From an uncultured Bacilli bacterium (GTDB taxonomy: Bacteria > Bacillota_I > Bacilli_A > RF39 > UBA660): 33,130 nt of DNA. The notes under the pieces were generated by a model. It did not search any database and had not been told where the DNA came from. It saw only the letters and a list, made by a program, of their open reading frames with translations. Position numbers and translations under genes: made by a program. The stretch lies in the NCBI GenBank assembly GCA_944350345.1, contig CALVOP010000010.1, forward strand, positions 1-33,130, given 5' to 3'. Shown one piece after another: positions 926 to 33,130 of the stretch. Numbering within the stretch: position 1 is the stretch's first letter; every line of letters starts with the position of its first letter.

Positions 926-3559
926 CTAGTTGCTCCCTTTTTCACGAATCGCAGCTTGAGCAGCAGATAAGCGAGCAATAGGAACTCTAAATGGAGAACA
1001 AGAAACATATGTTAGCCCAATATTATGGCAAAATTCAACGCTTGATGGATCTCCACCATGTTCCCCACAAATACCTAGTTTAATATCAGGTCTAGTTTTC
1101 TTTCCATTTCTTGCAGCCATTTCAACTAGTTTTCCAACACCAATTTGATCTAGTTTTGCAAAAGGATCTTGTTCATATATTTTATTTTCATAATATGAAT
1201 TAAGGAATTTACCCGCATCATCTCTAGAAAAACCAAATGTCATTTGTGTCAAATCATTTGTTCCAAACGAGAAGAACTCTGCTTCTTTTGCAATCTCTTC
1301 AGCAGTTAAAGCAGCCCTTGGAATTTCAATCATAGTACCGATATGATATTCCATACTAGAGCCTTTTTCTTTCTTAACTTGCTCTGCAGTTTCAACAATA
1401 ATATCTTTAACAAACTTTAACTCTTTAACCTCTCCAACCAAAGGAACCATAATTTCAGGAACAATATCAAATCCTTCTTCATCCTTAACTTCTATTGCAG
1501 CTTCCATTAAAGCACGAGTTTGCATTTTAGCAATTTCTGGATAAGTTACTGCAAGACGGCAACCCCTATGACCCATCATAGGATTAAATTCGTGAAGTTC
1601 AGCACATTTAGCTTTTAAACGTTCAACTGTAACACCCATATCTTTAGCAAGTGCAATGATGTCCTTTTCTTCAGTAGGTAAAAATTCATGCAAAGGTGGA
1701 TCTAAATAACGAACAGTCATTGGCAAACCTTTTAATTCCTTATACATTGCCTTAAAATCACCTTTTTGGAATGGAATTAAAGCATCCAAAGCCTTTACTC
1801 TTTCTTCAACCGTTTCAGATAAAATCATTTTTCTAATTGCAGGTATTCTCTCTTCATCAAAGAACATATGTTCAGTACGACATAAGCCAATACCTTCTGC
1901 TCCCAATTCAATTGCTTTTCTTGTATCTGTTGGATTATCAGCATTTGTTCTTACGCCTAACCTTCTATACTTATCAGCCCAGTTCATAACACGTTCAAAT
2001 TCACCTGCAATAGTAGCATCGACAGTTTTAATTTCGCCATCATAAATATTACCAGTTGAACCATCTATAGAAATAACATCACCTTCATGGAACGTTTTCC
2101 CAGCCAACTTAAACTCCTTATTAACTTCGTCCATTTGAATGTCGCCACATCCAGATACACAACAAGTACCCATACCACGAGCAACAACAGCAGCGTGGCT
2201 TGTCATACCACCACGAACTGTCAATATACCTTGAGCAGCCTTCATACCAGTAATATCTTCTGGAGAAGTTTCAAGTCTCACTAAAATAACTTTTTCGCCT
2301 TTTCCACCAACACCTTGTTTTGCAGCATCTTCAGCAGTAAAAACAACTTTACCACAAGCAGCCCCCGGTGATGCACCTAATCCTTTACCTAAAACGTTAG
2401 CTTCTTTCAAAGCTTTAGCGTCAAATTGTGGATGCAATAAAGTATCCAAATTACGAGGATCTATCATTAAAACTGCTTCTTCCTCAGTACGCATACCTTC
2501 ATCTACTAAATCACAAGCAATTTTTAAAGCTGCTTGAGCTGTTCTCTTACCATTTCTAGTTTGTAACATATATAGTTTACCATGTTCAACAGTAAACTCC
2601 ATATCTTGCATATCTCTATAATGTTCTTCTAAAGTTTTACATACTTTCTTAAATTCTTCAAATGCTTCAGGAAATTTTTCTTCCATTTCACTAATATGCA
2701 TTGGAGTACGAACTCCTGCTACAACATCCTCACCTTGAGCGTTTGTCAAAAACTCACCGAATAAACCTTTTTCACCAGTAGCTGGGTCACGTGTAAATGC
2801 AACACCTGTACCGCAGTCATCGCCCATATTACCAAAAGCCATTGATTGAACATTAACAGCTGTTCCCCAAGAATAAGGAATATCATTATCTCTTCTATAC
2901 ACATTAGCACGTGGATTGTCCCAAGAACGGAACACTGCCTTAACAGCACCCATCAATTGTTCTTTAGGATCATTTGGGAAATCTTCACCAATTTTTGACT
3001 TATATTCAGCTTTAAACTCTCTAGCTAACTCTTTTAAATCATCGGCATCTAACTCAACGTCTAATTTTACACCTTTTTTATCTTTCATCTTATCTATTAA
3101 TTCTTCAAAGTATTTCTTACCAACTTCCATAACTACATCAGAATACATTTGAATAAATCTTCTATAACAATCCCAAGCCCATCTAGGATTACCAGACTTT
3201 TCTGCCAAAGCATTTACAACTTCTTCATTTAACCCTAAATTAAGTATTGTATCCATCATTCCTGGCATAGAAGCCCTAGCGCCTGATCTAACAGAAACCA
3301 ATAATGGATTTTCCTTATCACCAAATTTCTTCCCAGTGATTTCTTCCATTTTTATTATGTACTCATTTATTTGACCCTGAATTTCTTCATTAATCTTACG
3401 ACCATCTTCATAATATTGAGTACACGCCTCAGTTGTAATTGTAAAGCCTTGTGGTACTGGCAAACCAATATTAGTCATCTCAGCCAAATTAGCCCCTTTA
3501 CCACCAAGAAGGTTTCTCATATCTGCATTACCTTCACTAAACATGTAAACATATTTCAT
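926..3559 (-). CDS. ppdK: Pyruvate, phosphate dikinase
   Basis: PPDK interconverts pyruvate, ATP and phosphate with PEP, AMP and pyrophosphate in the cytosol; in fermenters it often serves PPi-linked glycolysis. The 877-residue length is normal for the family. The N-terminal nucleotide-binding domain opens with LLGGKGANLAEM and carries SVRSGARASMPGMMDT. The central swivelling domain has the phospho-histidine motif GGMTSHAAVVARGMG. The C-terminal barrel has GLCRTEHMFF, MMGHRGCRL and FGTNDLTQMTFG, and the late Cys motif GICGEHGG. I start at the ATG at 3559 because GGAGGAGAGA precedes it; an in-frame start eight codons earlier has no such site and lies inside tdk. The start sits one base after the tdk stop, which suggests translational coupling. 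Confidence 0.97.
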   Translation of the reverse strand: MKYVYMFSEGNADMRNLLGGKGANLAEMTNIGLPVPQGFTITTEACTQYYEDGRKINEEIQGQINEYIIKMEEITGKKFGDKENPLLVSVRSGARASMPGMMDTILNLGLNEEVVNALAEKSGNPRWAWDCYRRFIQMYSDVVMEVGKKYFEELIDKMKDKKGVKLDVELDADDLKELAREFKAEYKSKIGEDFPNDPKEQLMGAVKAVFRSWDNPRANVYRRDNDIPYSWGTAVNVQSMAFGNMGDDCGTGVAFTRDPATGEKGLFGEFLTNAQGEDVVAGVRTPMHISEMEEKFPEAFEEFKKVCKTLEEHYRDMQDMEFTVEHGKLYMLQTRNGKRTAQAALKIACDLVDEGMRTEEEAVLMIDPRNLDTLLHPQFDAKALKEANVLGKGLGASPGAACGKVVFTAEDAAKQGVGGKGEKVILVRLETSPEDITGMKAAQGILTVRGGMTSHAAVVARGMGTCCVSGCGDIQMDEVNKEFKLAGKTFHEGDVISIDGSTGNIYDGEIKTVDATIAGEFERVMNWADKYRRLGVRTNADNPTDTRKAIELGAEGIGLCRTEHMFFDEERIPAIRKMILSETVEERVKALDALIPFQKGDFKAMYKELKGLPMTVRYLDPPLHEFLPTEEKDIIALAKDMGVTVERLKAKCAELHEFNPMMGHRGCRLAVTYPEIAKMQTRALMEAAIEVKDEEGFDIVPEIMVPLVGEVKELKFVKDIIVETAEQVKKEKGSSMEYHIGTMIEIPRAALTAEEIAKEAEFFSFGTNDLTQMTFGFSRDDAGKFLNSYYENKIYEQDPFAKLDQIGVGKLVEMAARNGKKTRPDIKLGICGEHGGDPSSVEFCHNIGLTYVSCSPFRVPIARLSAAQAAIREKGSN

Positions 3560-5128: not shown

Positions 5129-6676
5129 TTAATTCACCGCACTTGAGCACGCACTTGGTAATTCTACTGTATATGGATCACTTGCCGTTCCACTTCCTCC
5201 AGAGGCGAGAACACAAGATTTCAGAGAAATTACGGGACGCACGCCGCGCTTGTAGTCGACGACATTGTTGACCAAGCGGCCAGAGCTAGAAGACCCGCCC
5301 ACGATGAACACGTAAGCGTAGCCGTAGCTGCTATCCCAGATGCTCGGACTCATTGTCCACCACCACGATGCTCCACTTGATGCGTTCTGGGCTATATAAT
5401 AGTTTGAGTTATTTGTTGCCCATAATCCTCCTGCATAACTTATTTCATCTGCTGTGATCATTCCTATTGGATATGTTAATTTACCATTTCCTGTACTTGT
5501 ACTTGCTGTAAACCTATCATTTACATTACTACATGTGAACGTTGGTGTTTTATTTGTTTCTAGTCTTTCTCTTGCAGCATAGTGGAATGTGCTTCCTGTT
5601 GCACTCCAACTTCCACTTCCTACCGTTCTATCATTACAGTATATTGCTGTCTTACTTATATATCCTGAGTAGCTATTCAAGTTACTACTGTACCAGTTAT
5701 CTATTGTTGTTTTTATTGGACTATTTGTTCCCGTTCCATATTGCTGACTTGCTGTATACATATACCCTACATATGCACTATTTTTCGGGCTTGAGTTATA
5801 TGCTTGGCTTGTACTTATAAATGCCGCTGTATCACTTGCACTCGTTCCTGCATATATCAAACGCACACTATTATCTTCGTTTATTCTCACTATTCTCCAG
5901 TAATATCCTGCAAATTCTACATAATTGTTTGTAACAGCTCCTGCAAAATAATAAGTATCCTTTCCGTCTTGTCCACTTGCTTTATATATTGTGTTTCCAT
6001 TATTACTTTCAGTAAATATTGTGCTAAAGTCTGTCCTAGTTTCTACATTTGGGTTATCTTCTAGTATCTGTGCATACAAAGTTGGTTTGGGACATTCCCC
6101 ATTTACAGCAGAAACTTTAATATGAGCAGTTATTCCATTTCCACTATTATTTTGAAGCAAACTAGTTTGATCAACTGTATCACTATAACTTAACCATATT
6201 CTAAATTCATACGTAATAGAATCATCCACTCCCAAAGTATTATTACCAAGTAATGGAATTAAACCGGCACCTGTAACAGTACTAAAATCTTTAACACCAG
6301 TAATACTTACATTATTAGTTGCATCAAACAATTCATACTTAATCCACTGACTTTTAAACTTATCCTGAATAGTATCTAAACTCAAATCAATGCTATAGCA
6401 AGCATCCAAAGTACTTCTATCTTCATGTGAAATAGTAAAAACATTTTTATTTGCTGCAGTAGCCCTAACGTCATCATAAATTGGAGTAGCAAAATTAACA
6501 TTTATAACTTCACTATCTTGATATTTTACATCCAAAATACCCGTAGTAACATTAATAGGTTTTCCTGTCCCCTCCACCTGTGTACTAAACCAAGCATAAG
6601 TCAAATTCACAACGCTAACAATAAGTAAAAGTACACCAGTAATACTTAAAATAATTAGCCGTTTATTATTATCCAT
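5129..6676 (-). CDS. TasA/camelysin-type anchored surface protein with hypervariable C-terminal domain (putative DGR target)
   Basis: A 515-residue exported protein. Residues 8-28 form a hydrophobic signal or anchor followed by LTYAWFSTQVEGTG, the N-terminus typical of SipW-processed TasA/camelysin-like proteins; residues up to about 195 look like that beta-sandwich. From about residue 200 (LYAQILEDNPNV) a second domain begins, with NNYVEFAGYYWRIVRINED, YPIGMITADEISYAGG and WWWTMSP, and ends at GVRPVISLKSC. This arrangement resembles C-type-lectin/FGE-like DGR target domains; that fold is inferred. Residues 445-477 are hypervariable against the two copies in the gene at 30734-33130. An AAGGAG site precedes the ATG and a consensus promoter lies at 6704-6732. 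The variable segment is strikingly GC-rich within an AT-rich gene. Confidence 0.85.
   Translation of the reverse strand: MDNNKRLIILSITGVLLLIVSVVNLTYAWFSTQVEGTGKPINVTTGILDVKYQDSEVINVNFATPIYDDVRATAANKNVFTISHEDRSTLDACYSIDLSLDTIQDKFKSQWIKYELFDATNNVSITGVKDFSTVTGAGLIPLLGNNTLGVDDSITYEFRIWLSYSDTVDQTSLLQNNSGNGITAHIKVSAVNGECPKPTLYAQILEDNPNVETRTDFSTIFTESNNGNTIYKASGQDGKDTYYFAGAVTNNYVEFAGYYWRIVRINEDNSVRLIYAGTSASDTAAFISTSQAYNSSPKNSAYVGYMYTASQQYGTGTNSPIKTTIDNWYSSNLNSYSGYISKTAIYCNDRTVGSGSWSATGSTFHYAARERLETNKTPTFTCSNVNDRFTASTSTGNGKLTYPIGMITADEISYAGGLWATNNSNYYIAQNASSGASWWWTMSPSIWDSSYGYAYVFIVGGSSSSGRLVNNVVDYKRGVRPVISLKSCVLASGGSGTASDPYTVELPSACSSAVN
5132..6080 (-). repeat. Variable-domain copy 1 (dispersed long repeat)
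   Basis: DNA from the LYAQILEDNPNV motif to the C-terminal tail matches copies at 31968-32882 and 30737-31686. The match to 31968-32882 includes about 100 bases with no difference just upstream of the variable segment, which points to recent duplication or gene conversion. Confidence 0.85.
5246..5344 (-). other. Candidate DGR variable region VR1
   Basis: Thirty-three codons between the constant ATGAGTCCG and GGCGTGCGTCCC on the coding strand. Against the equal-length region at 30851-30949 there are 24 base differences, 23 of them at codon positions 1 or 2. Variable codons mostly end in C or T (AGC/CGC, ATC/GGC, TAC/AGC, GTC/TAC, CGC/TAC), as expected from AAC/AAT codons diversified at adenines. 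Confidence 0.82.
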
Positions 6677-8392: not shown

Positions 8393-8415
8393 AAAAAAAA
8401 GAGTTTAAAACTCTT
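8393..8415 (-). terminator. Terminator of the prepilin-like gene
   Basis: AAGAGTTT and AAACTCTT (8399-8406 and 8408-8415) form an eight-base stem followed on the minus strand by nine T. The stem overlaps the last bases of the stop codon. Confidence 0.8.
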
Positions 8416-9028
8416 AACTTGTAGTATTTTCAAAAGTTATATTTTCATCAGTAATCATCTTTACAACTAAAACACCATCTATCTTATAAACACCCATTAT
8501 ACGCCACATAACCCCGCTATACCAAAGATAATTATCTAGGTCACTTCCAACATACAAGCAAGGGTTACTTTCAGTAATATTTTCACAATGTAAGTCTTCA
8601 ATCACTTTATCAACAAGTTCACTACTACTTGAACTACCAAGTTCACCATCCCAAATAGCAATAACAGTGCTCATTTCCCTTTTAACAAGTATTTTCACAT
8701 CATTTAAACTTTCATTATCAACAGGATTTATAACACATCCATAACTATCAGTACAATTACTTCCATTACTTTCGGTATCGCTTTCAACATAATCGGCCTC
8801 AACTAATTCACCAACAGTGACTATAAACTCATTTGGATTAAACAACTGGGGATTATCTTGCCCATAAAGTTCAGCAGCAACCAAAATTGTATCCTTTTTA
8901 CTTTCAAGGAGACGCGCATTAATCCTATTTCTAATAGCAATCACGCTAGGAATAGCGATAGCAATCACAATGCTGATTAATACTATAACTACTATAATTT
9001 CAGTTAAAGTAAAACCCTTTTTGTTCAT
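8414..9028 (-). CDS. Type IV prepilin-like protein ending in a truncated variable-type domain
   Basis: A 204-residue protein with a class III prepilin leader, MNKKG/FTLTEIIVVIVLI, where a prepilin peptidase would cut before Phe, followed by a long hydrophobic helix (residues 6-32). A middle region contains cysteines (NCTDSYGCV, HCENITESNPC). Near the C-terminus YLWYSGVMWRIMGVYKIDGVLVVKMIT matches in layout the start of the domain in the surface protein at 5129-6676 (YVEFAGYYWRIVRINEDNSVRLIYA). It then stops at ENTTS, immediately against a terminator, so most of the domain, including any variable region, is missing. No other pilus genes are in the window. An AGGAAGG site precedes the ATG. Confidence 0.75.
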   Translation of the reverse strand: MNKKGFTLTEIIVVIVLISIVIAIAIPSVIAIRNRINARLLESKKDTILVAAELYGQDNPQLFNPNEFIVTVGELVEADYVESDTESNGSNCTDSYGCVINPVDNESLNDVKILVKREMSTVIAIWDGELGSSSSSELVDKVIEDLHCENITESNPCLYVGSDLDNYLWYSGVMWRIMGVYKIDGVLVVKMITDENITFENTTS

Positions 9029-23790: not shown

Positions 23791-24099
23791 ATGTTCAAAT
23801 TAGTATCAAAATACAAACCAAGTGGTGATCAACCTCAAGCAATAAAAAAGTTAGTTGATAGACTAAAAAGCGGAAAAAAAGAACAAGTACTTTTAGGCGC
23901 AACAGGAACAGGTAAAACATTTACGATTGCAAACGTTATACAAGAAGTCAACAAGCCCATACTAGTTTTAGCCCATAATAAAACATTAGCAGGACAATTA
24001 TATAGTGAATTCAAAGAACTATTTACCGAATACCGTATTTTATATTTTGTCTCATATTATGAAAATACCTCAAATCCTGTATTATTTAATGCTGTTTAG
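23791..24099 (+). pseudogene. Truncated 5' copy of uvrB
   Basis: The first 89 or so codons match the 5' end of the intact uvrB at 25479 at roughly 88% base identity (about 32 differences in 267 bases), including the Walker A GATGTGKT. Homology stops at FVSYY, just before the damage-binding beta-hairpin; about 13 unrelated codons lead to TAG. The fragment cannot be a functional UvrB, although it has a better promoter and an intact ribosome binding site. Differences are mostly silent, so the copy was under selection before it was separated or came from a relative. Confidence 0.88.
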
Positions 24100-24235: not shown

Positions 24236-25267
24236 ATGAGTAATATAACAATTGGAAATGAAAAAAATATTTTATTTTATAGTGATGAAAATGGACAAAC
24301 TAAAGTAGAAGTAATTCTACAAAATGAAAATGTTTGGTTAAATGTAAATGCAATAGCTACTCTTTTTGATGTACAAAGACCTGCTATTGTAAAGCATATA
24401 AATAATATATATAATGATGAAGAATTAAGTAAAGAATCAACTTGTTCCATTTTGGAACAAGTTCAAATTGAAGGAACACGAAGTATTAAAAGACAAAAAG
24501 AATACTATAATCTAGATATGATTATTTCTATTGGATTTAGGGTTAATTCTAAAAAAGCAATTAAATTTCGAAGTTGGGCAAATGAGATAATTAAAGATTA
24601 TATGATCCAAGGTTTTGCACTTGATGATGATAGATTTATGAAAGCAAGAAAATCTGATCAAGAATATTTTAAAAGATTACTTGAAAGAATAAAACTAATT
24701 CGTACTAGCGAGAGAATATTTTATCAAAAAATTACAGACATATTTGCTGAGTGTTCTATTGATTATGATAAAAACAGCGATATAGCAAAAGATTTTTATT
24801 CAACTATTCAAAATAAATTTCATTATGCTATTACTGGTAATACTGCAGCAGAAATCATCTACAATAGAGTTGATAGTCAAAAGGAGAATATGGGACTAAC
24901 AAACTGGAATAAATCTCCTGATGGAAAAATCTTAAAATCAGATGTTTCTATTGCTAAAAATTATTTAGAAGAAAAAGAAATAAAAAATTTAAATAATTTG
25001 GTAAACTTATTTTTAGATATTGCAGAAAATAATGCTGAAAGAAATTTATCAATGACTATGGAAGATTGGAAGAATGAGATAGAAACATCCTTAAAATTAT
25101 TCCACTATGATGTATTAAAAGGCAAAGGAAAGATTTCTGCTGAAAAAGCAAAACAAAAAGCAGAAAATGAATATGAAAAATACAAAATTATACAAGATAA
25201 AAAATTTGTTTCTGATTTTGATAAATTATTAATAGAAGCAAATAAAATTGATAATAAACAGGAGTAA
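24236..25267 (+). CDS. RhuM-family (virulence RhuM/YhdN-type) protein
   Basis: A 343-residue protein whose N-terminal half (ILFYSDENGQTKVEVILQNE, VWLNVNAIATLFDVQRPAI, YYNLDMIISIGFRVNSKKAIKFRSWANEI) is the RhuM hallmark, with a KilA/Bro-like layout. RhuM genes occur in accessory regions, genomic islands and near restriction or Fic genes; their biochemical role is unknown. The C-terminal half is helical and charged. It starts after an AAAGGA site and is the only cargo gene between the two uvrB copies. No integrase or transposase is in the interval. Confidence 0.85.
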   Translation: MSNITIGNEKNILFYSDENGQTKVEVILQNENVWLNVNAIATLFDVQRPAIVKHINNIYNDEELSKESTCSILEQVQIEGTRSIKRQKEYYNLDMIISIGFRVNSKKAIKFRSWANEIIKDYMIQGFALDDDRFMKARKSDQEYFKRLLERIKLIRTSERIFYQKITDIFAECSIDYDKNSDIAKDFYSTIQNKFHYAITGNTAAEIIYNRVDSQKENMGLTNWNKSPDGKILKSDVSIAKNYLEEKEIKNLNNLVNLFLDIAENNAERNLSMTMEDWKNEIETSLKLFHYDVLKGKGKISAEKAKQKAENEYEKYKIIQDKKFVSDFDKLLIEANKIDNKQE

Positions 25268-25478: not shown

Positions 25479-27434
25479 ATGTTTAAATTACATTCAAATT
25501 ATCAACCTAGTGGTGATCAACCTCAAGCAATAAAAAAGCTAGTTGACGGACTAAAAAGTGGAAAAAAAGAACAAGTACTTTTAGGCGCAACAGGAACAGG
25601 TAAAACTTTTACAATTGCAAACGTTATACAAGAAGTTAACAAACCTACCCTAGTTTTAGCCCATAACAAAACATTAGCAGGGCAATTATATAGTGAATTC
25701 AAAGAACTGTTTCCTGAAAATCGTGTTTTATATTTTGTTAGTTATTACGACTACTACCAACCAGAAGCATATGTTCCAAGTAAAGACTTATACATAGAAA
25801 AAGATGCAAGCATCAATGACGAAATAGACGAATTAAGACACGCAGCGACAAGTAGCCTATTAAATAGAAGTGATTGTATAGTAGTTGCAAGTGTATCGTG
25901 CATATACGGTATTGGTGAAGTAGAAGAATATAAAAACAAAATGTTAACATTAATAGTTGGGGACACAATAGACAGAGACGCCATACTAGAAAAACTAGTC
26001 AACATGCTTTACGAAAGAAGTGTAAACGACTTTACAAGAGGAACATTTAGAGTAAAAGGAGACACAATAGAAATAATACCAGTATACGAAAAAAAGAACG
26101 GAATTAGAATAGAACTATTTGGTGACGAAATAGAAAAAATATACGAATTTGACACATTAACAGGTAACATCATAAATGAGAAAAAAAGCGTCAGTATATT
26201 CCCAGCATCGCACTTTGTAACGAGTGAAGAAAAACTAAAAGAAGCTATCAAAAGAATAGAAAAAGAATTAAAAGAAAGACTTATAGAACTTGATAAGCAA
26301 GGAAAAATAGTAGAAAAAGAAAGACTAAAACAAAGAACAATGTACGACATAGAGATGCTAAAAGAAACAGGATTTTGTCACGGTGTTGAAAACTACAGCA
26401 GACACCTTGCACTTAGAGAAGAAGGAGAAACACCTACTACACTCATAGACTTTTTCCCAAAAGACTTTCTACTAGTTGTTGACGAATCGCATGTCACATT
26501 ACCACAAGTAAGAGGAATGTATAACGGTGATAGACAAAGAAAGCAAACACTTGTAGACTATGGATTCCGTTTACCTAGTGCTAGAGACAATAGACCTTTA
26601 AAATTTGAAGAATTCGAGCAAAAAATAAATCAAGCAATATACGTATCAGCGACACCAGGGGATTACGAACTAGAAAAAACAAAAGGAGAAATAGTTGAAC
26701 AAATAATAAGACCTACTGGACTACTAGATCCGACAATCGAAGTAAAACCAACAAAAGGACAAATAGATGACATAATAAACGAAATAAAAGCAAGAACAGA
26801 AAAAAACGAAAGAGTATTAATCACAACCCTTACAATTAGAATGGCAGAAGAACTAACTAATTATTTAAAAGACATGGGAGTAAAAGCATTATACCTACAT
26901 AATGAAATAAAAACATTAGAAAGACTAAACATAATTAGAAATTTAAGACTAGGAAAAATAGATGTAATTGTAGGAATCAACCTATTAAGAGAAGGAATAG
27001 ACATACCAGAAGTATCACTAATTTGCATAATGGATGCTGACAAACAAGGATTTTTAAGAAGTGATAGAAGTTTAATACAAACAATAGGAAGATGCGCTAG
27101 AAACAAAAATGGACACGTAATCATGTATGCAGACACAATAAGTGAAGCAATGAAAATAGCAATAGAAGAAACAAAAAGAAGAAGAACAATACAAGAAAAA
27201 TATAACATTGAGCACAACATAACACCACAGACAATAGTAAAAGAAATACATGATAACGTCACAAACATAGAAGAAACAAAACCTAAAGCAATCAAAAAAG
27301 ACTCTAAAAAGAACAAACAAGAACTAATTAGAGAACTAGAAATAGAAATGAAAAAAGCGGCCAAAGAATTAGACTTCGAACGCGCTATGGAACTAAGAGA
27401 TGCAATGTTTGAACTAAGTGTAAACGAAGACTAA
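25479..27434 (+). CDS. uvrB: Excinuclease ABC subunit B
   Basis: The helicase-like damage-verifying subunit of nucleotide excision repair, acting with UvrA and UvrC. The 651-residue length is normal. Motifs: [10 protein letters not shown] (Walker A), [12 protein letters not shown] (beta-hairpin), [13 protein letters not shown] (Walker B), [27 protein letters not shown] (motif VI), and the C-terminal UVR domain ([25 protein letters not shown]) that contacts UvrC. AGGAGGTGAC precedes the ATG. No clear -10/-35 pair precedes this copy, unlike the truncated copy upstream. By eye, the first 90 codons use T-ending codons more than the rest. The gene overlaps truA convergently by 4 bases. Confidence 0.97.
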
Positions 27435-28150
27435 TAAATAACCCTATTTAAATAAAGACCACCAGGAAAAGCAGGTTTACCAATAGAAGACCTGTTTTTT
27501 AATTCAAAAATATCAGTTATATCATTCAAATTAACTTTACCCTCATTTAAATCCAACAATAGTCCAACGATATTTCTAATCATATATCTTAAAAAACCAG
27601 AAGAAACAAACTTAATAATCAAAATATTATTTTTAACAACAAAAGAAATATCAACATTTCTCACATAATCATCATACTTACCAGAAGTAAAACTTTCAAA
27701 GTCATGCGTTCCAGATAACAACTTAATTGCTTTTCTTAATTTAATCAAATCAATACCTTTATTATACTGAAAAACATAATTAACCATACAAGGATTATAC
27801 TTCCCCAAATTAATAAGATAAATATACTCCTTCTTCTTAACACTATATCTAGCATGAAATTCATCATTAACGACAAAAACATCATCAACATAAATACTTG
27901 AAGGCAACAATTTATTTAAACTATTCCTAATAACTAAAACATCCTTCACCTTAGAAGAATCAAAATGAAAATAAAACTCATTAGCATGTACACCCCTATC
28001 AGTACGAGAACAACCAACACACTTAATTTTTTCATCAAAAACTTTAGAAAGACATCTATCAAAAATACCCATTACAGTAACCTTATCATTTTGCCTTTGT
28101 GAACCATAAAAAGCACTACCATCATAACAAATTTTAATCAAATATCTCAT
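27431..28150 (-). CDS. truA: tRNA pseudouridine synthase A
   Basis: Forms pseudouridine at positions 38-40 of tRNA anticodon arms. The 239-residue protein begins [20 protein letters not shown], has the catalytic Asp in [12 protein letters not shown] and ends with [13 protein letters not shown], typical of TruA. The ATG overlaps the ecfT stop (ATGA), so it is translationally coupled as the last gene of the ECF operon, the usual Firmicute order. Confidence 0.96.
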
Positions 28151-28905
28151 AACAAATTCACTTCCAAAATATAACCATATAAAAACAACAAATGAAAAAC
28201 AAGTAACATAAAAGCATAAAAATTAAACTTACCCGTTTTCATATTGGTGCGCCTTTTTTTAACACTAAACATCCTTAACTTAGCCAAATTATTAACATCT
28301 TTCATACGTTTAAAAGTAAGTCTAATACTATTTTTAAAAGAATACAAAACAGCATAATATCTACCTACAATACCACTATGAACATAATCAATTCCCCTAC
28401 TAGCTTGACGCCTTAAAACACGATTTTCCGTAGTTACAAGTGCCGGAATAAATCTAAACACATTTCCAACCACAAGAGAGATATAAGAAACATTTAAATT
28501 TAAAAAATTAATAGGATTTAAAACCTTATAAATGCCATAATCAAACTCACTCCAACTAGTCGTAAACACCAACAATGCCAAATACTGAGTAACGAGAATA
28601 AACTTTAGCAAATAAGTTAACGAAAGTTCCAAAGAAAAACCTGCACCCGCAAAGACAAAGATTAAGACTAAATACAAATACCTAAATCCATAAAACATAT
28701 TAAAGAAAAACCTAAAAGGAACTTTAGACTCAATAATTTGCAGTACCAAAATAGCAAGAACAAACAAATGTAATTCCAAACTTTTGCTACCAATCATAAC
28801 CAAAACAAACAAGAAAAAATTCAAAAGTTTAACAACAACACTCATTTCATGGATCTTACTATTAACAGGGTAATAAGACCCAAACATCCCCTTAGAGTAC
28901 ATCAT
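28147..28905 (-). CDS. ecfT: ECF transporter T component
   Basis: Membrane coupling subunit of group II energy-coupling factor transporters, which import vitamins and metals with exchangeable S components. The 252-residue protein has an N-terminal amphipathic region, about five membrane helices (near 25-45, 45-60, 68-110, 150-170 and 230-250) and a cytoplasmic coupling section with RRQASRGIDY, the Ala-Arg-Gly-type motif that contacts the ATPases. It overlaps ecfA2 by 14 bases and truA by 4. No S-component gene is nearby, as is usual. Confidence 0.88.
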   Translation of the reverse strand: MMYSKGMFGSYYPVNSKIHEMSVVVKLLNFFLFVLVMIGSKSLELHLFVLAILVLQIIESKVPFRFFFNMFYGFRYLYLVLIFVFAGAGFSLELSLTYLLKFILVTQYLALLVFTTSWSEFDYGIYKVLNPINFLNLNVSYISLVVGNVFRFIPALVTTENRVLRRQASRGIDYVHSGIVGRYYAVLYSFKNSIRLTFKRMKDVNNLAKLRMFSVKKRRTNMKTGKFNFYAFMLLVFHLLFLYGYILEVNLL

Positions 28906-29737
28906 TACAAACCCCCTTTACCAAATCTAAAACGCTCTTATAATATTTAAAATTCTTATTATATTTACTCCTAACCAAATTAGAAAAAGTAACAATTAAA
29001 GGACTAGAAATATCATATTTAGAAAGCTTATTTTCGTCATAAAAAATATCATTATTACCCTGCATAACTAATTCGCCATTACTTAAAACTAGAATACTAG
29101 AATTAAACTCATATATAAAATCAACATCTCTACTCATAACAATAATAGTTTTACCGTACTTTTCATTAATAAAATTAAGAATACGAATTAATTCCCTTTT
29201 TTCACGAGAATTAAAATGTAAAGTAGGTTCATCCAATATAATAACCTTAGGATTATAAACCAGAACAGAAGCAAGACCAACTTTTTTAGATTCACTAAGA
29301 GACAAATCATCTATATTTTTATTTAAATATTCTTCACCCAGTCCAACAATTTTAAGAGCCTCAATAGACCTAACCACCTTTTTATTAGTTTTATACTTAA
29401 AAAACTTCATAGCAAACTCAAGTTCATCCTTAACTTTTTTATTAAAAAACATATCATCTTTATTCTTATAAACAACACCAACATCAAATCTAAGACTATT
29501 AACATTTTTAATATTTCTTCCATCATTTACAAACTCACCAATTTTAACGGAACCTTTTGATGGCCTAACGACACCATTAATCAAGTCTCCAATTACAGAC
29601 TTACCAGAATTAGAATTACCCAGAAAACAATATTTTTTACCACTTTCAAGTTTAAAACTAACATTTTTTAGCAATAACTTTTCAGCATAAGTCCTACTAT
29701 TAACAATCAAACTAACATCATTAAATTCTATTTCCAT
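28892..29737 (-). CDS. ecfA2: ECF transporter ATPase subunit, second (EcfA2 position)
   Basis: ABC ATPase of 281 residues. Walker A is intact (GNSNSGKS, residues 40-47) and Walker B reads VIILDEPTLHF. The signature motif is divergent, LSLSESKKV instead of LSGGQ, and the H-loop histidine is replaced (MSRDVDF). The position between ecfA1 and ecfT and the overlaps on both sides (10 and 14 bases) identify it as EcfA2. Only one of its motifs is consensus, so it may depend on composite sites with its partner. Confidence 0.85.
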   Translation of the reverse strand: MEIEFNDVSLIVNSRTYAEKLLLKNVSFKLESGKKYCFLGNSNSGKSVIGDLINGVVRPSKGSVKIGEFVNDGRNIKNVNSLRFDVGVVYKNKDDMFFNKKVKDELEFAMKFFKYKTNKKVVRSIEALKIVGLGEEYLNKNIDDLSLSESKKVGLASVLVYNPKVIILDEPTLHFNSREKRELIRILNFINEKYGKTIIVMSRDVDFIYEFNSSILVLSNGELVMQGNNDIFYDENKLSKYDISSPLIVTFSNLVRSKYNKNFKYYKSVLDLVKGVCNDVL

Positions 29738-30498
29738 ATATCATCCACCAACTCACCGACACTATCAAAATACTTATCAACAATACCATAATCCATCAAA
29801 TACTTATTAACTTCGACCAAAAAAGGAAGCCCAACACCCAATTTTTTCATAAGCTTATCTTCATTTAAAACATTAATAGTCTTACCACTGATTAAAATTT
29901 TTTCATTATTTAAAACGATTACATCACTACCAAATAAACACTCACTCACATCAGAAGTAAAATTAAAAACAATATTATCATTATTAACAAAATCATCTAA
30001 ATTTTTAATAACCATATTTAAATCACATTTATCAAGTTCACACAAAACTTCATCCAAGACCAAAACCTTGGGTTCACAAACAAGCGACCCAACTATTTTT
30101 ATTTTAACTTTATCACTTATACCTAGAGAATTTGGATCTTTATCTAACAAATTCATAATTTCAAACTTCTTAGCATATTTTAAAATCTTATCTTCCATCT
30201 CATTTTTATTTAACCCCAAACATTCCATACCAAAAGCAATATCATCACTAACAGTTTCACCAACAAACAAATTAAGATGTTCATGCAAGACAAAAGAAAC
30301 ATTTTTTTTATATTTAAAAATGTTTTTAAAATTAATTTTAGCAAACATTAAAGTTACGTAATCATGATTATTTTTAAAAAGCAAATTATCGATTAATCTT
30401 TTATTTCCATCACCCAAAAAAATAACAAATGAACGCGTTGGAAAACTAAAAGACAGATCCTTACTTTCACTATATGTAAAATAATTATTAAAATTCAT
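29728..30498 (-). CDS. ecfA1: ECF transporter ATPase-like subunit with a degenerate P-loop (EcfA1 position)
   Basis: A 256-residue ABC ATPase-like protein in the EcfA1 position. The P-loop reads GDGNKRLI (residues 29-36), missing the GKS/T core; the signature reads LGISDKVKI, Walker B is VLVLDEVLCELD, and the H-loop lacks His (TSDV). The Q-loop region contains FVLHEHLNLF and QTVS-like ETVSDDIAFG. I start at the ATG at 30498, preceded by GAGGAG; an in-frame ATG five codons earlier lies on that site. A TATAAT box lies about 30 bases upstream. The protein may be a non-hydrolysing partner. Confidence 0.8.
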   Translation of the reverse strand: MNFNNYFTYSESKDLSFSFPTRSFVIFLGDGNKRLIDNLLFKNNHDYVTLMFAKINFKNIFKYKKNVSFVLHEHLNLFVGETVSDDIAFGMECLGLNKNEMEDKILKYAKKFEIMNLLDKDPNSLGISDKVKIKIVGSLVCEPKVLVLDEVLCELDKCDLNMVIKNLDDFVNNDNIVFNFTSDVSECLFGSDVIVLNNEKILISGKTINVLNEDKLMKKLGVGLPFLVEVNKYLMDYGIVDKYFDSVGELVDDIWK

Positions 30499-30660
30499 CA
30501 CAAAACTCCTCATAATTATTATACAATAACAAAAAAGAATATTAAAGTTTTTCTAAAAATTCATCAAATTTTATAAATTGGACGTAAAATTATGATTAAT
30601 TATCTATATATTAACTTTAACATGTAAAGTATACAAGATTAATAATTTGTAACATATTAA

Positions 30661-30685
30661 AAACACAACCAAAAGTTGTGTTTTA
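30661..30685 (-). terminator. Hairpin terminator downstream of the second variable surface gene
   Basis: AAAACACAAC / GTTGTGTTTT (30661-30670 and 30676-30685) with a five-base loop, nearly identical to the hairpin at 5089-5114, including the following ATCATTTAACAAA. It ends about 48 bases past the stop of the gene at 30734. Confidence 0.75.
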
Positions 30686-30733
30686 TCATTTAACAAAATT
30701 TTAAATTATCGCCAAAAGATTTACGTGGCTCAT

Positions 30734-33130
30734 TTAATTCTCTGCACTTGAGCACGCACTTGGTAACTCTACTGTATATGGATCACTTGCCGTTCCACTT
30801 CCTCCAGAGGCAAGAACACAAGATTTCAGAGAAATTACGGGACGCACGCCGTACGTGAGGTCGACGTAAGTGCTGCTCAAGCGGCCAGCGTTAGAAGACC
30901 CGCCCACGTAGAACACGATAGCGCTACCGTAGCTGCTATACCAGCCGCGCGGACTCATTGTCCACCAGTAACTTGCTCCGCTTGATGCGTTCTGAGCTAT
31001 ATAATAACTAGTATTATTAGCTATATATCCTCCTGCGTAATACACTTCGTCCATTGTAATTAACCCTATTGGGTATATTAGTTTTCCATTTCCTGTACTT
31101 GTACTTGCTGTAAACCTATCATTTGCATTACTACATGTGAACGTTGGTGTTTTATTTGTGTATAGTCTTGTATATGCAGCATAGTAGAATGGGTCGTTTC
31201 CTGTTGCACTCCAACTTCCACTTCCTACTGTTCTATCATTACAATATATCGCTGTCTTACTTATATACCCTGAATAACTACTTAAATTACTTGTGTACCA
31301 GTTATCTACCACTGTTTTTATACTACTATTTGTTCCTGTTCCATACTGCTGACTTGCTGTATACATATACCCTACATATGAACTATTATTATAGCTTGAG
31401 TTATATACTTGGCTTGTATTTATAAATGCTGCTGTATCTGTCGCACTTGTTCCTGCATATATTAAACGCACACTAGCATCTTCATTTATTCTCACTATTC
31501 TCCAGTACTTATTTGCAAACTTTACATAGTTATTTGTTACCTGACCTGCAAAGTAATATGTTGTTTTATTATCTTGACCCGTCGCTCTATATATAGTGTT
31601 TCCATTATTACTTGTTGTAAATACACTACTAAAACTACTTCTTGTACTTACATTTGGGTTATTCTCTAACACTTGGACATATAATGAATTTAGTGATTTA
31701 AAGTTAACTTGACATGTTGTACTACTTGTTACATTACTTACTGTTAATTTATTTGTGCTTGTATCATATGTTCCATTACACCCTGTTACATTTTCATATT
31801 CATACCCATCTTTTACTGTAAATGTAAATGTATGAGAACTTCCACTATTTATTATTACTGAACTTGGCGCATTTACTGTTGCCATACTTGCATCATTTGT
31901 TGTTGCACTTACTCTTACTGTATTTTCTTCTAGTACCTCATTTTCTACATTAGCACATCCATCTGACAACTCTACCGTATACGGATCACTTGCCGTTCCA
32001 CTTCCTCCAGAGGCGAGAACACAAGATTTCAGAGAAATTACGGGACGCACGCCGCCCGTGTCGTTGACGCCAGCGCTAGTCAAGCGGCCAGCGCGAGAAG
32101 ACCCACCCACGATGAACACGAGAGCGCTGCCGCCATCCCAGTCGCGCGGACTCATTGTCCACCACCACGATGCTCCACTTGATGCGTTCTGGGCTATATA
32201 ATAGTTTGAGTTATTTGTTGCCCATAATCCTCCTGCATAACTTATCTCATCTGCTGTTATTAGTCCTATTGGATATGTTAGTTTTCCGTTTCCTGTACTT
32301 GTACTTGCTGTAAATCTATCATTAGAATTACTACATACAAATGTTGGTGTTTTATTTGTTTGTAGTCTTTCTCTTGCAGCATAGTAGAATGTACTTCCTG
32401 TTGCACTCCATGTTCCCCATCCTACTGTTCTATCATTGCAATATATCGCTGTCTTACTTATATATCCTGAGTAACTATTCAAGTTACTACTGTACCAGTT
32501 ATCTACTGTTGTTTTTATTGGACTATTTGTATTAGTTCCATATTGTTGACTTGTTGTGTACATATACCCCACATACGCACTATTATCTGCGCTTGAGTTA
32601 TATGCTTGAGATGTACTTATAAATGCCGCTGTATCTGTTGCACTTGTTCCTGCATATATTAAACGCACACTGTTATCTTCGTTTATTCTTACTATTCTCC
32701 AGTAATATCCTCCAAAATATACATAATTGTTTGTAACAGCTCCTGCAAAATAATATGTATCCTTTCCGTCTTGTCCACTTGCTTTATATATTGTGTTTCC
32801 ATTATTACTATCTGTAAATATTGTACTAAAATCTGTTCTTGTACTTACATTTGGGTTATCTTCTAATATTTGTGCATACAAATATGGTGGATTTGTAAAA
32901 TTAATTGTACAGTTTGTAGGAACTTCTGTTATATTGCCTACAATAATTCCCCATGTATCATTATTCCATTCTGCTGTTGCTCCATTCGTACAAGTTACAC
33001 CTGAAACAACATATCCATCATTTTTTCCTGGCAAGTCTCCAATTTGTTCAACTCCATTTAAAGTCCATGCTATAACATTAACATCACCTTTTGGTGTAAA
33101 TACAAACGGATCACTTGCTGTCCCGCTTCC
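30734..33130 (-). CDS. Surface protein with tandem hypervariable domains (5' end outside window)
   Basis: The frame is open to the right edge, so the true start lies outside; the TTG at 33034 is not a real start. At least 798 residues are visible. Residues 1-11 (GSGTASDPFVF) match the tail of a preceding domain copy. After a linker, copy A spans about residues 84-384 (variable segment 329-359). A beta-rich linker follows (about 385-465, INSGSSHTFTFTVKDGYEYENVTGC and a later CQVNF), similar to bacterial Ig-like or InlB-type repeats. Copy B spans about 466-798 (variable segment 728-760). Both copies have the YYWRIVRINED or KYWRIVRINED start and end at GVRPVISLKSC. A signal peptide and wall anchor, if any, are outside the window. 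It is the first gene right of the ECF operon. Confidence 0.88.
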   Translation of the reverse strand, partial: GSGTASDPFVFTPKGDVNVIAWTLNGVEQIGDLPGKNDGYVVSGVTCTNGATAEWNNDTWGIIVGNITEVPTNCTINFTNPPYLYAQILEDNPNVSTRTDFSTIFTDSNNGNTIYKASGQDGKDTYYFAGAVTNNYVYFGGYYWRIVRINEDNSVRLIYAGTSATDTAAFISTSQAYNSSADNSAYVGYMYTTSQQYGTNTNSPIKTTVDNWYSSNLNSYSGYISKTAIYCNDRTVGWGTWSATGSTFYYAARERLQTNKTPTFVCSNSNDRFTASTSTGNGKLTYPIGLITADEISYAGGLWATNNSNYYIAQNASSGASWWWTMSPRDWDGGSALVFIVGGSSRAGRLTSAGVNDTGGVRPVISLKSCVLASGGSGTASDPYTVELSDGCANVENEVLEENTVRVSATTNDASMATVNAPSSVIINSGSSHTFTFTVKDGYEYENVTGCNGTYDTSTNKLTVSNVTSSTTCQVNFKSLNSLYVQVLENNPNVSTRSSFSSVFTTSNNGNTIYRATGQDNKTTYYFAGQVTNNYVKFANKYWRIVRINEDASVRLIYAGTSATDTAAFINTSQVYNSSYNNSSYVGYMYTASQQYGTGTNSSIKTVVDNWYTSNLSSYSGYISKTAIYCNDRTVGSGSWSATGNDPFYYAAYTRLYTNKTPTFTCSNANDRFTASTSTGNGKLIYPIGLITMDEVYYAGGYIANNTSYYIAQNASSGASYWWTMSPRGWYSSYGSAIVFYVGGSSNAGRLSSTYVDLTYGVRPVISLKSCVLASGGSGTASDPYTVELPSACSSAEN
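30737..31686 (-). repeat. Variable-domain copy 3 (copy B of the tandem protein)
   Basis: Long DNA repeat of the domain in the genes at 5129-6676 and 31968-32882, with the same ending GSGTASDPYTVELPSACSS as copy 1. It is more diverged from copies 1 and 2 than they are from each other (for example ASYWWTMSP for ASWWWTMSP and GGYIANNTSYY for GGLWATNNSNYY). Confidence 0.8.
30851..30949 (-). other. Candidate DGR variable region VR2
   Basis: Thirty-three codons bounded by the same constant ATGAGTCCG and GGCGTGCGTCCC as VR1. Its codons include CGC, GGC, AGC, ATC, TAC, AAC, ACT and CTC where VR1 has AGC, ATC, TAC, TAC, ATC, AGC, AAT and TAC. Third bases are kept at all but one of the differing codons. 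Confidence 0.82.
31968..32882 (-). repeat. Variable-domain copy 2 (copy A of the tandem protein)
   Basis: Matches copy 1 at 5132-6080 closely, with about 100 identical bases directly 5' of the variable segment on the coding strand, so this copy was exchanged or duplicated recently. Its tail (SDGCANVENE) differs from the other two copies because the protein continues into a linker. Confidence 0.85.
32054..32146 (-). other. Candidate DGR variable region VR3 (two codons shorter)
   Basis: Thirty-one codons in the same flanks as VR1 and VR2. It lacks six bases: SSYG in VR1/VR2 is GG here. Variable codons again end mainly in C or T (CGC, GAC, CTC, CGC, ACT, GCT, GGC, AAC, GAC). Third-base changes against VR2 occur at three of the compared codons. 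Confidence 0.8.

Follow-up and report, generated by a model that had tools for sequence, protein, structure and literature searches.

Variable regions of lectin-fold domains in an uncultured RF39 bacterium point to a multi-template diversity-generating retroelement since deleted from its site beside EcfA1

A stretch of 33,130 nucleotides from an uncultured Bacilli bacterium (hereafter, the window) carries three short hypervariable segments within protein-coding genes, which raises the question of what wrote them and whether the machinery responsible is still present. The window genome (G000) comprises 898,335 bases in 33 contigs and is 90.16% complete. Two target genes, both on the minus strand, hold the segments. 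The first, W1 (5129-6676), is an open reading frame of 515 amino acids with an N-terminal hydrophobic segment and a C-terminal DUF6273 domain; its variable region (VR), running from AGTCCG to GTAATT, occupies 5228-5350. The second, W2/W3 (30734-33130), is an open reading frame of at least 798 amino acids whose 5' end lies beyond the contig end and which contains two tandem DUF6273 domains, with VRs at 30833-30955 (W2) and 32036-32152 (W3). The VRs were delimited by codon alignment (for W1, with 14 other copies) and by comparison with templates; those of W1 and W2 belong to a class with a six-codon spacer, and that of W3 to a four-codon class that is 6 bp shorter. Additional elements of the window include a gene on the same strand near W1 (8414-9028) whose product has an N-terminus like that of type IV prepilins (KKGFTLTEIIVVIVL), and a truncated uvrB start (23791-24099) that matches the full gene at 25479 at 86% across 308 bp. 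A RhuM-family gene (24236-25267) sits between the truncated copy and the full uvrB, directly before the latter, an arrangement suggestive of an insertion that duplicated the start of uvrB.

A DNA search of G000 with the W1 segment returned 14 places, and closer inspection of these regions yielded 15 domain copies, distributed over contigs C2, C3, C8, C10, C16 and C17 and all reading as protein through the segment. Several of these contigs terminate near a copy. The VRs on C8 and C17 are older and decayed, with 17/77 and 22/77 non-adenine positions changed, and those of copies C3c and C2s also look decayed in the alignment. Copies C2c (L047 2822-3351) and C3a (L048 4423-4952) are near-identical in domain and VR except for the final VR codons and the frame, a recombination-like arrangement.

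The first-pass annotation had read the segments as VRs of a diversity-generating retroelement (DGR), and this reading is supported by mismatches concentrated at adenines, by a DGR in a congener and by a lectin-fold target. Its count of 24 differing bases between 5246-5344 and 30851-30949 was confirmed, and these fall 12 times on codon position 2, 11 times on position 1 and once on position 3; 32054-32146 follows the same pattern and is 6 bases shorter, with two codons missing. Its statement that third positions are confined to C or T held for the majority, and A never occurs there, but G was found as well (21 C, 6 T and 6 G in the first segment), corresponding to fixed codons such as GTG, TTG and GGG. 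Across the codon alignment of all 15 copies, most of the variable codons have the form NNC or NNT and are set in an invariant GC-rich frame (..GTG TTC NNC GTG GGY GGG TCT TCT NNC NCT GGC NNC TTG NNC NNC NNC NNC GTC NNC NNC NCG NNC GGC GTG CGT CCC GTA ATT..), and in the better-preserved copies the GC content of the VR reaches 0.54-0.67 against 0.35-0.38 in the flank.

For the statistical comparison, adenine and non-adenine positions were taken from a congener template, which provides an independent classification. Among the three window copies, 19/28 adenine positions vary against 6/77 of the others (Fisher p = 1.7e-9), and when the G000 VRs are set against the congener template, variation affects 25/28 adenine and 15/77 other positions (p 7e-11). 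In the eight well-preserved G000 copies, third-position divergence is 0.227 in the upstream flanks and 0.065 at non-adenine positions of the VR, the latter being below the flank value in 28/28 pairs, while template-adenine positions differ at 0.60. For instance, W1 and W2 diverge by 25% upstream, at 0/34 non-adenine third positions in the segment and by 61% at adenine positions. Low non-adenine and high adenine divergence indicate that the frame was copied later than the genes diverged and that the adenine positions are near saturation; we take this pattern to be the trace left when a common template is copied with mutagenesis at its adenines.

A template with the frame GTGGGCGGGTCTTCT and AAC codons was predicted from the G000 alignment, and in a sample of 193 family genomes its matches adjoined DGR-type reverse transcriptases (RTs) in eight genomes. 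These matches are AAC-rich and lie upstream of Avd and RT in seven genomes and downstream of RT in one. In the congener G195, contig C63 (L094) bears an intact cassette that starts with the end of a target gene and its VR and comprises three template repeats, TR1 (345-463), TR2 (828-952) and TR3 (1194-1309), followed by Avd (1592-1936; bAvd Pfam E 1.5e-8, PHROG 'Avd protein of DGR' 2e-10), the RT (1920-3041; RVT_1 2e-17, PHROG RT 3e-76, with the IGNMTSQ and YMDD motifs) and, after the RT, a stand-alone MutS-like gene of 135 amino acids (3053-3460; MutS_I, domain I, 8e-5). Relatives of the cassette RT occur in 76 phage records, including Bordetella phages, every one below 60% identity. In the G195 template array, predicted promoters were no more frequent than in shuffled sequence, and we make no claim of separate promoters for each template.

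The proposal that every mismatch should sit at a template adenine was borne out for two VRs of the congener, in which the VR on C63 differs from TR1 at 18 positions, 18 of them adenines (TR1 has 34 A and 85 other bases; p 2e-12), and a second VR differs from TR2 at 15 positions, 15 of them adenines. A third G195 VR, whose loop length is unlike that of all three templates, shows 17 adenine and 2 other mismatches. Comparisons for G000 use the G195 templates in place of its own, and against the last 20 codons of TR2 the G000 copy C2t has 10 adenine mismatches and 0 others. Fixed bases differ between the G195 templates and the G000 frame (GTT/TCG vs GTG/TCT), so the former are relatives of the lost G000 template and not that template itself.

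Regarding the genomic position, the G195 cassette is directly followed by EcfA1, EcfA2, EcfT and TruA, and in a sister genus (G077) these four genes likewise come after Avd, RT and a MutS-like gene, which marks the site next to EcfA1 as the ancestral place of the cassette. The same anchor is present in the window, where TruA, EcfT, EcfA2 and EcfA1 occupy 27431-30513 on the minus strand (open reading frames; protein search in six congeneric genomes). Between EcfA1 and W2/W3, only 220 bp (30514-30733, minus strand) replace the cassette, whereas G195 has about 3.25 kb there. This gap ends in the last codons of the MutS-like gene, followed by the EcfA1 upstream region; the remnant GATGAATTTTTAGAAAAACTTTAA (DEFLEKL-stop; 30542-30565, minus strand) is identical to G195, and the region gives a 76-base match to L094 3437-3512 (E 4.9e-27). 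Shared synteny together with the 220-bp gap and its MutS-like tail leads us to conclude that the cassette was deleted at the window site.

The search for a DGR-type RT that the first-pass annotation had suggested thus had a divided outcome: an RT was located in G195 at the syntenic position, with DGR-type RTs in other family members, and none was found in G000. Specifically, no RVT_1 domain was identified in G000 (90% complete), and a 10-sequence DGR RT profile had no match at E<=1; likewise, an Avd profile had no match at E<=1 in G000 and one in G195. A separate template repeat, for which it had also suggested a search, did not turn up in G000, where the predicted template matched nothing but the coding copies of the domain and, by chance, a single 20-base stretch. 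A whole MutS-like protein was not found in G000, which retains the last codons, detected by DNA. Of the features of a complete DGR, RT, template and Avd were thus all found in G195 and none of them in the 90% complete G000, so that the element that wrote the G000 VRs is seen only indirectly.

The congeneric genomes tell of repeated loss. G070, the closest relative (genome 95% complete), has an EcfA1 96% identical to that of G000 and the same remnant, with a different upstream neighbour, and the variable domain at its W1 locus is gone. G196 bears a shorter remnant at the EcfA1 locus. In G194, a different, internal deletion removed Avd and almost the entire RT from this place and spared the template-side flank, the RT end and a shortened MutS-like gene. 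In G193, neither RT nor remnant was found. The RT was thus identified in 1/6 congeners, and the losses comprise at least two different deletions. An artefactual junction is unlikely, because the remnants agree across three separately assembled genomes (G000, G070 and G196). At the EcfA1 locus the VRs are orphaned. Elsewhere in G196, a complete MutS-like gene lies directly after a VR target (L095 1415-1819), with no RT or Avd adjacent and no Avd found genome-wide.

Drawing on the direct observations of the adenine pattern, the homogenised frame, the congener cassette and the deletion scar, the best explanation, to which we assign a probability of roughly 0.87, is that the VRs were written by a multi-template DGR whose cassette has since been deleted beside EcfA1. 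The retroelement would formerly have lain between W2/W3 and EcfA1, with templates of several lengths; RT and Avd would have taken one of several AAC-rich, non-coding repeats as template, placing random bases opposite its adenines, and by analogy with the known DGR family the cDNA would have replaced the 3' part of the lectin-fold target genes. Such templates would have altered the loops of about 15 domains, probably exposed at the surface, in length as well as in sequence before deletion of the cassette left the MutS-like tail and locally orphaned VRs.

A variant of the DGR explanation, to which we give slightly less than even odds, holds that only the EcfA1-locus copy was lost and that an active DGR at another chromosomal site, or on a plasmid or prophage outside the bin, acts in trans. 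The G000 VR frames are fresh and 10% of the genome is missing. The third-position divergence of the VRs (6.5%) compares with 7.4% between G000 and G070 in EcfA1, indicating that writing stopped recently or has not stopped; fresh frames sit a little awkwardly with an old loss, and contigs break at repeats. Furthermore, GTG/TCT frames occur in G000, G193 and G194 and a matching template in none of the six congeneric genomes, and the G077 template arrays lie on a contig other than that of the RT, or 24 kb away. Against a DGR in trans, the template frame was found in none of 2.9 million viral contigs, phage records and plasmid records, and RT, Avd and template were all not found in G070, despite its 95% completeness, along with the loss of its W1 variable domain. 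Species-specific template bases were considered as proof of homing after the split of G000 and G195 and were dropped, since both frame types occur in G193.

Very unlikely is recombination among the 15 paralogs, through gene conversion or silent cassettes and with no reverse transcription. The many paralogs share a common frame, and C3a and C2c are near-identical until the last VR codons, but exchange among copies cannot confine changes to the adenines of a separate non-coding template (18/18 and 15/15 in G195), nor vary nearly every adenine column beside fixed neighbours; recombination probably adds to the variation produced by a DGR. Ordinary positive selection on the ligand-binding loop of a duplicated domain would suit a lectin-fold loop and the enrichment of changes at codon positions 1 and 2, but its probability is negligible, as it would neither lower third-position divergence in the VR (6.5% vs 23% in the flank) nor hold a GC content of about 0.6 within an AT-rich gene.

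That the DGR behind the G000 VRs had several templates is indicated by loop length. In the three G195 templates, TGG and GCT are separated by 4, 6 and 3 codons, and the G000 VR spacers mostly have 4, 5 or 6. In G000, the second spacer codon is GGC or GGT in all four-codon copies and AGC in the five-codon and most six-codon copies. Copy C2a carries the GAC..TGG of TR1 and copy C3a the ..GAC TGG of TR3, with fixed Trp codons. Because TGG is not derivable from AAC by adenine mutation alone, these codons and the spacer classes make a strong sequence-based case for at least two templates in that DGR. A VR with a nine-codon spacer in G195 (L137 82) and one with an eight-codon spacer in G193 (L134 17767) fall outside all templates seen, and further templates beyond TR1-TR3 probably exist.

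In G077, about 11 non-coding template-like units on C6 (L082 2927-6971) and about 5 on C12 (L081 2009-3544) are arranged in tandem with a period of about 320 bp; some are AAC-rich, others resemble VRs, and several look as if they had undergone adenine mutagenesis themselves. Units 6285 and 5950 are distinguished by 11 bases, and 10 of these sites are adenines in 5950 (p 1e-5), as might result from template-to-template mutagenic homing. Taken together, the VR length classes of G000, the G195 trio of templates and the roughly 16 G077 units suggest, tentatively and with the balance somewhat against it, that in this group of Bacilli the template is an evolving tandem array of loop lengths whose members can be rewritten by mutagenic homing, thereby diversifying both loop length and the template library. 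If such arrays were confirmed, they would represent a DGR route to loop-length variation, which is impossible for a single template.

Concerning the target protein, Pfam DUF6273 (PF19789) matched W2/W3 in two stretches (E 5e-9; 36.7 bits against a gathering threshold of 23.5), and W1 alone just under that threshold (E 1.8e-4; 21.9 bits). An AlphaFold model of the domain at 5132-6079 (m3ab9ebe163d8), built from 22 related sequences, reached a pLDDT of 75.8 and a pTM of 0.81; with close paralogs only, the pLDDT was 34, and the addition of distant relatives raised it to 75.8. The model aligns with C-type lectin-like structures over approximately residues 53-290, with the VR at about 244-283, in the last strands. 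Structure matches included 4eps (Z 6.6, 140 residues, 3.5 A), 8q4e (Z 6.6) many C-type lectins (Z 4.5-5.9) and 9qa6, an IgA peptidase (Z 12.5). Values of Z 5-7 alone would be weak, but nearly all rows show the same fold and earlier modelling had already assigned phage DUF6273 targets to the C-type lectins (PMC10743442), so the model makes a convincing case for a C-type lectin fold with the VR in its C-terminal part. A search of the domain profile against sequences of solved structures gave no relative, and no relatives of the target domain were found in viral contigs and phage records. The hydrophobic N-terminal segment of W1 resembles a signal or membrane anchor, and the target domains are probably exposed at the surface. 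Just 3' of the VR, no clear DNA hairpin of the BPP-1 style was seen in the three window copies.

When compared to known systems, the G000 VRs resemble the DGR of Bordetella phage BPP-1 in their adenine-specific differences and in having the VR within the C-terminal portion of a C-type lectin fold, and the G195 cassette resembles it in its bAvd and in an RT with the SQ motif and YMDD. Unlike BPP-1, the system is located on a bacterial chromosome, with about 15 target domains in 0.9 Mb, templates of several lengths and a MutS-like accessory, and the cassette is absent from the window genome. In Treponema denticola, strains without the DGR core bear VRs of DGR pattern with no RT or template, which were read as leftovers of core loss (PMC4891356); in our case, by contrast, the deletion site is visible through synteny and a gene-end remnant, and several congeners are without an RT. 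The DUF6273 targets (tentaclins) known from gut phages, those of Faecalibacterium among them, carry a VR, modelled as a beta-hairpin of a C-type lectin-like structure (PMC10743442; PMC11792537), whereas the G000 targets are chromosomal, large, partly multi-domain, equipped with an N-terminal signal or anchor and not phage structural genes. Multi-template DGRs, with several templates and several VRs per genome, were reported in the MetaCSST survey (PMC6642488); the templates described here differ in standing in tandem before Avd-RT and in having different loop lengths, consistent with the VR length classes. Finally, MSL accessory genes (MutS domain I) are known next to DGR RTs (PMC10053308), and in contrast to them the G195 MutS-like gene stands alone after the RT.

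DGRs, multi-template DGRs, DUF6273 targets, MutS-like accessories and left-over targets without a core have thus already been described, and the length-variant template array and the repeated loss of the cassette within one genus may be additions to this knowledge. A single short contig records the fate of a targeted-mutation system, in which a reduced genome retains many hypervariable lectin domains and the machine is gone from its site. With the cassette intact in G195 and an RT not found in five others, this genus makes the gain and loss of DGRs directly testable.
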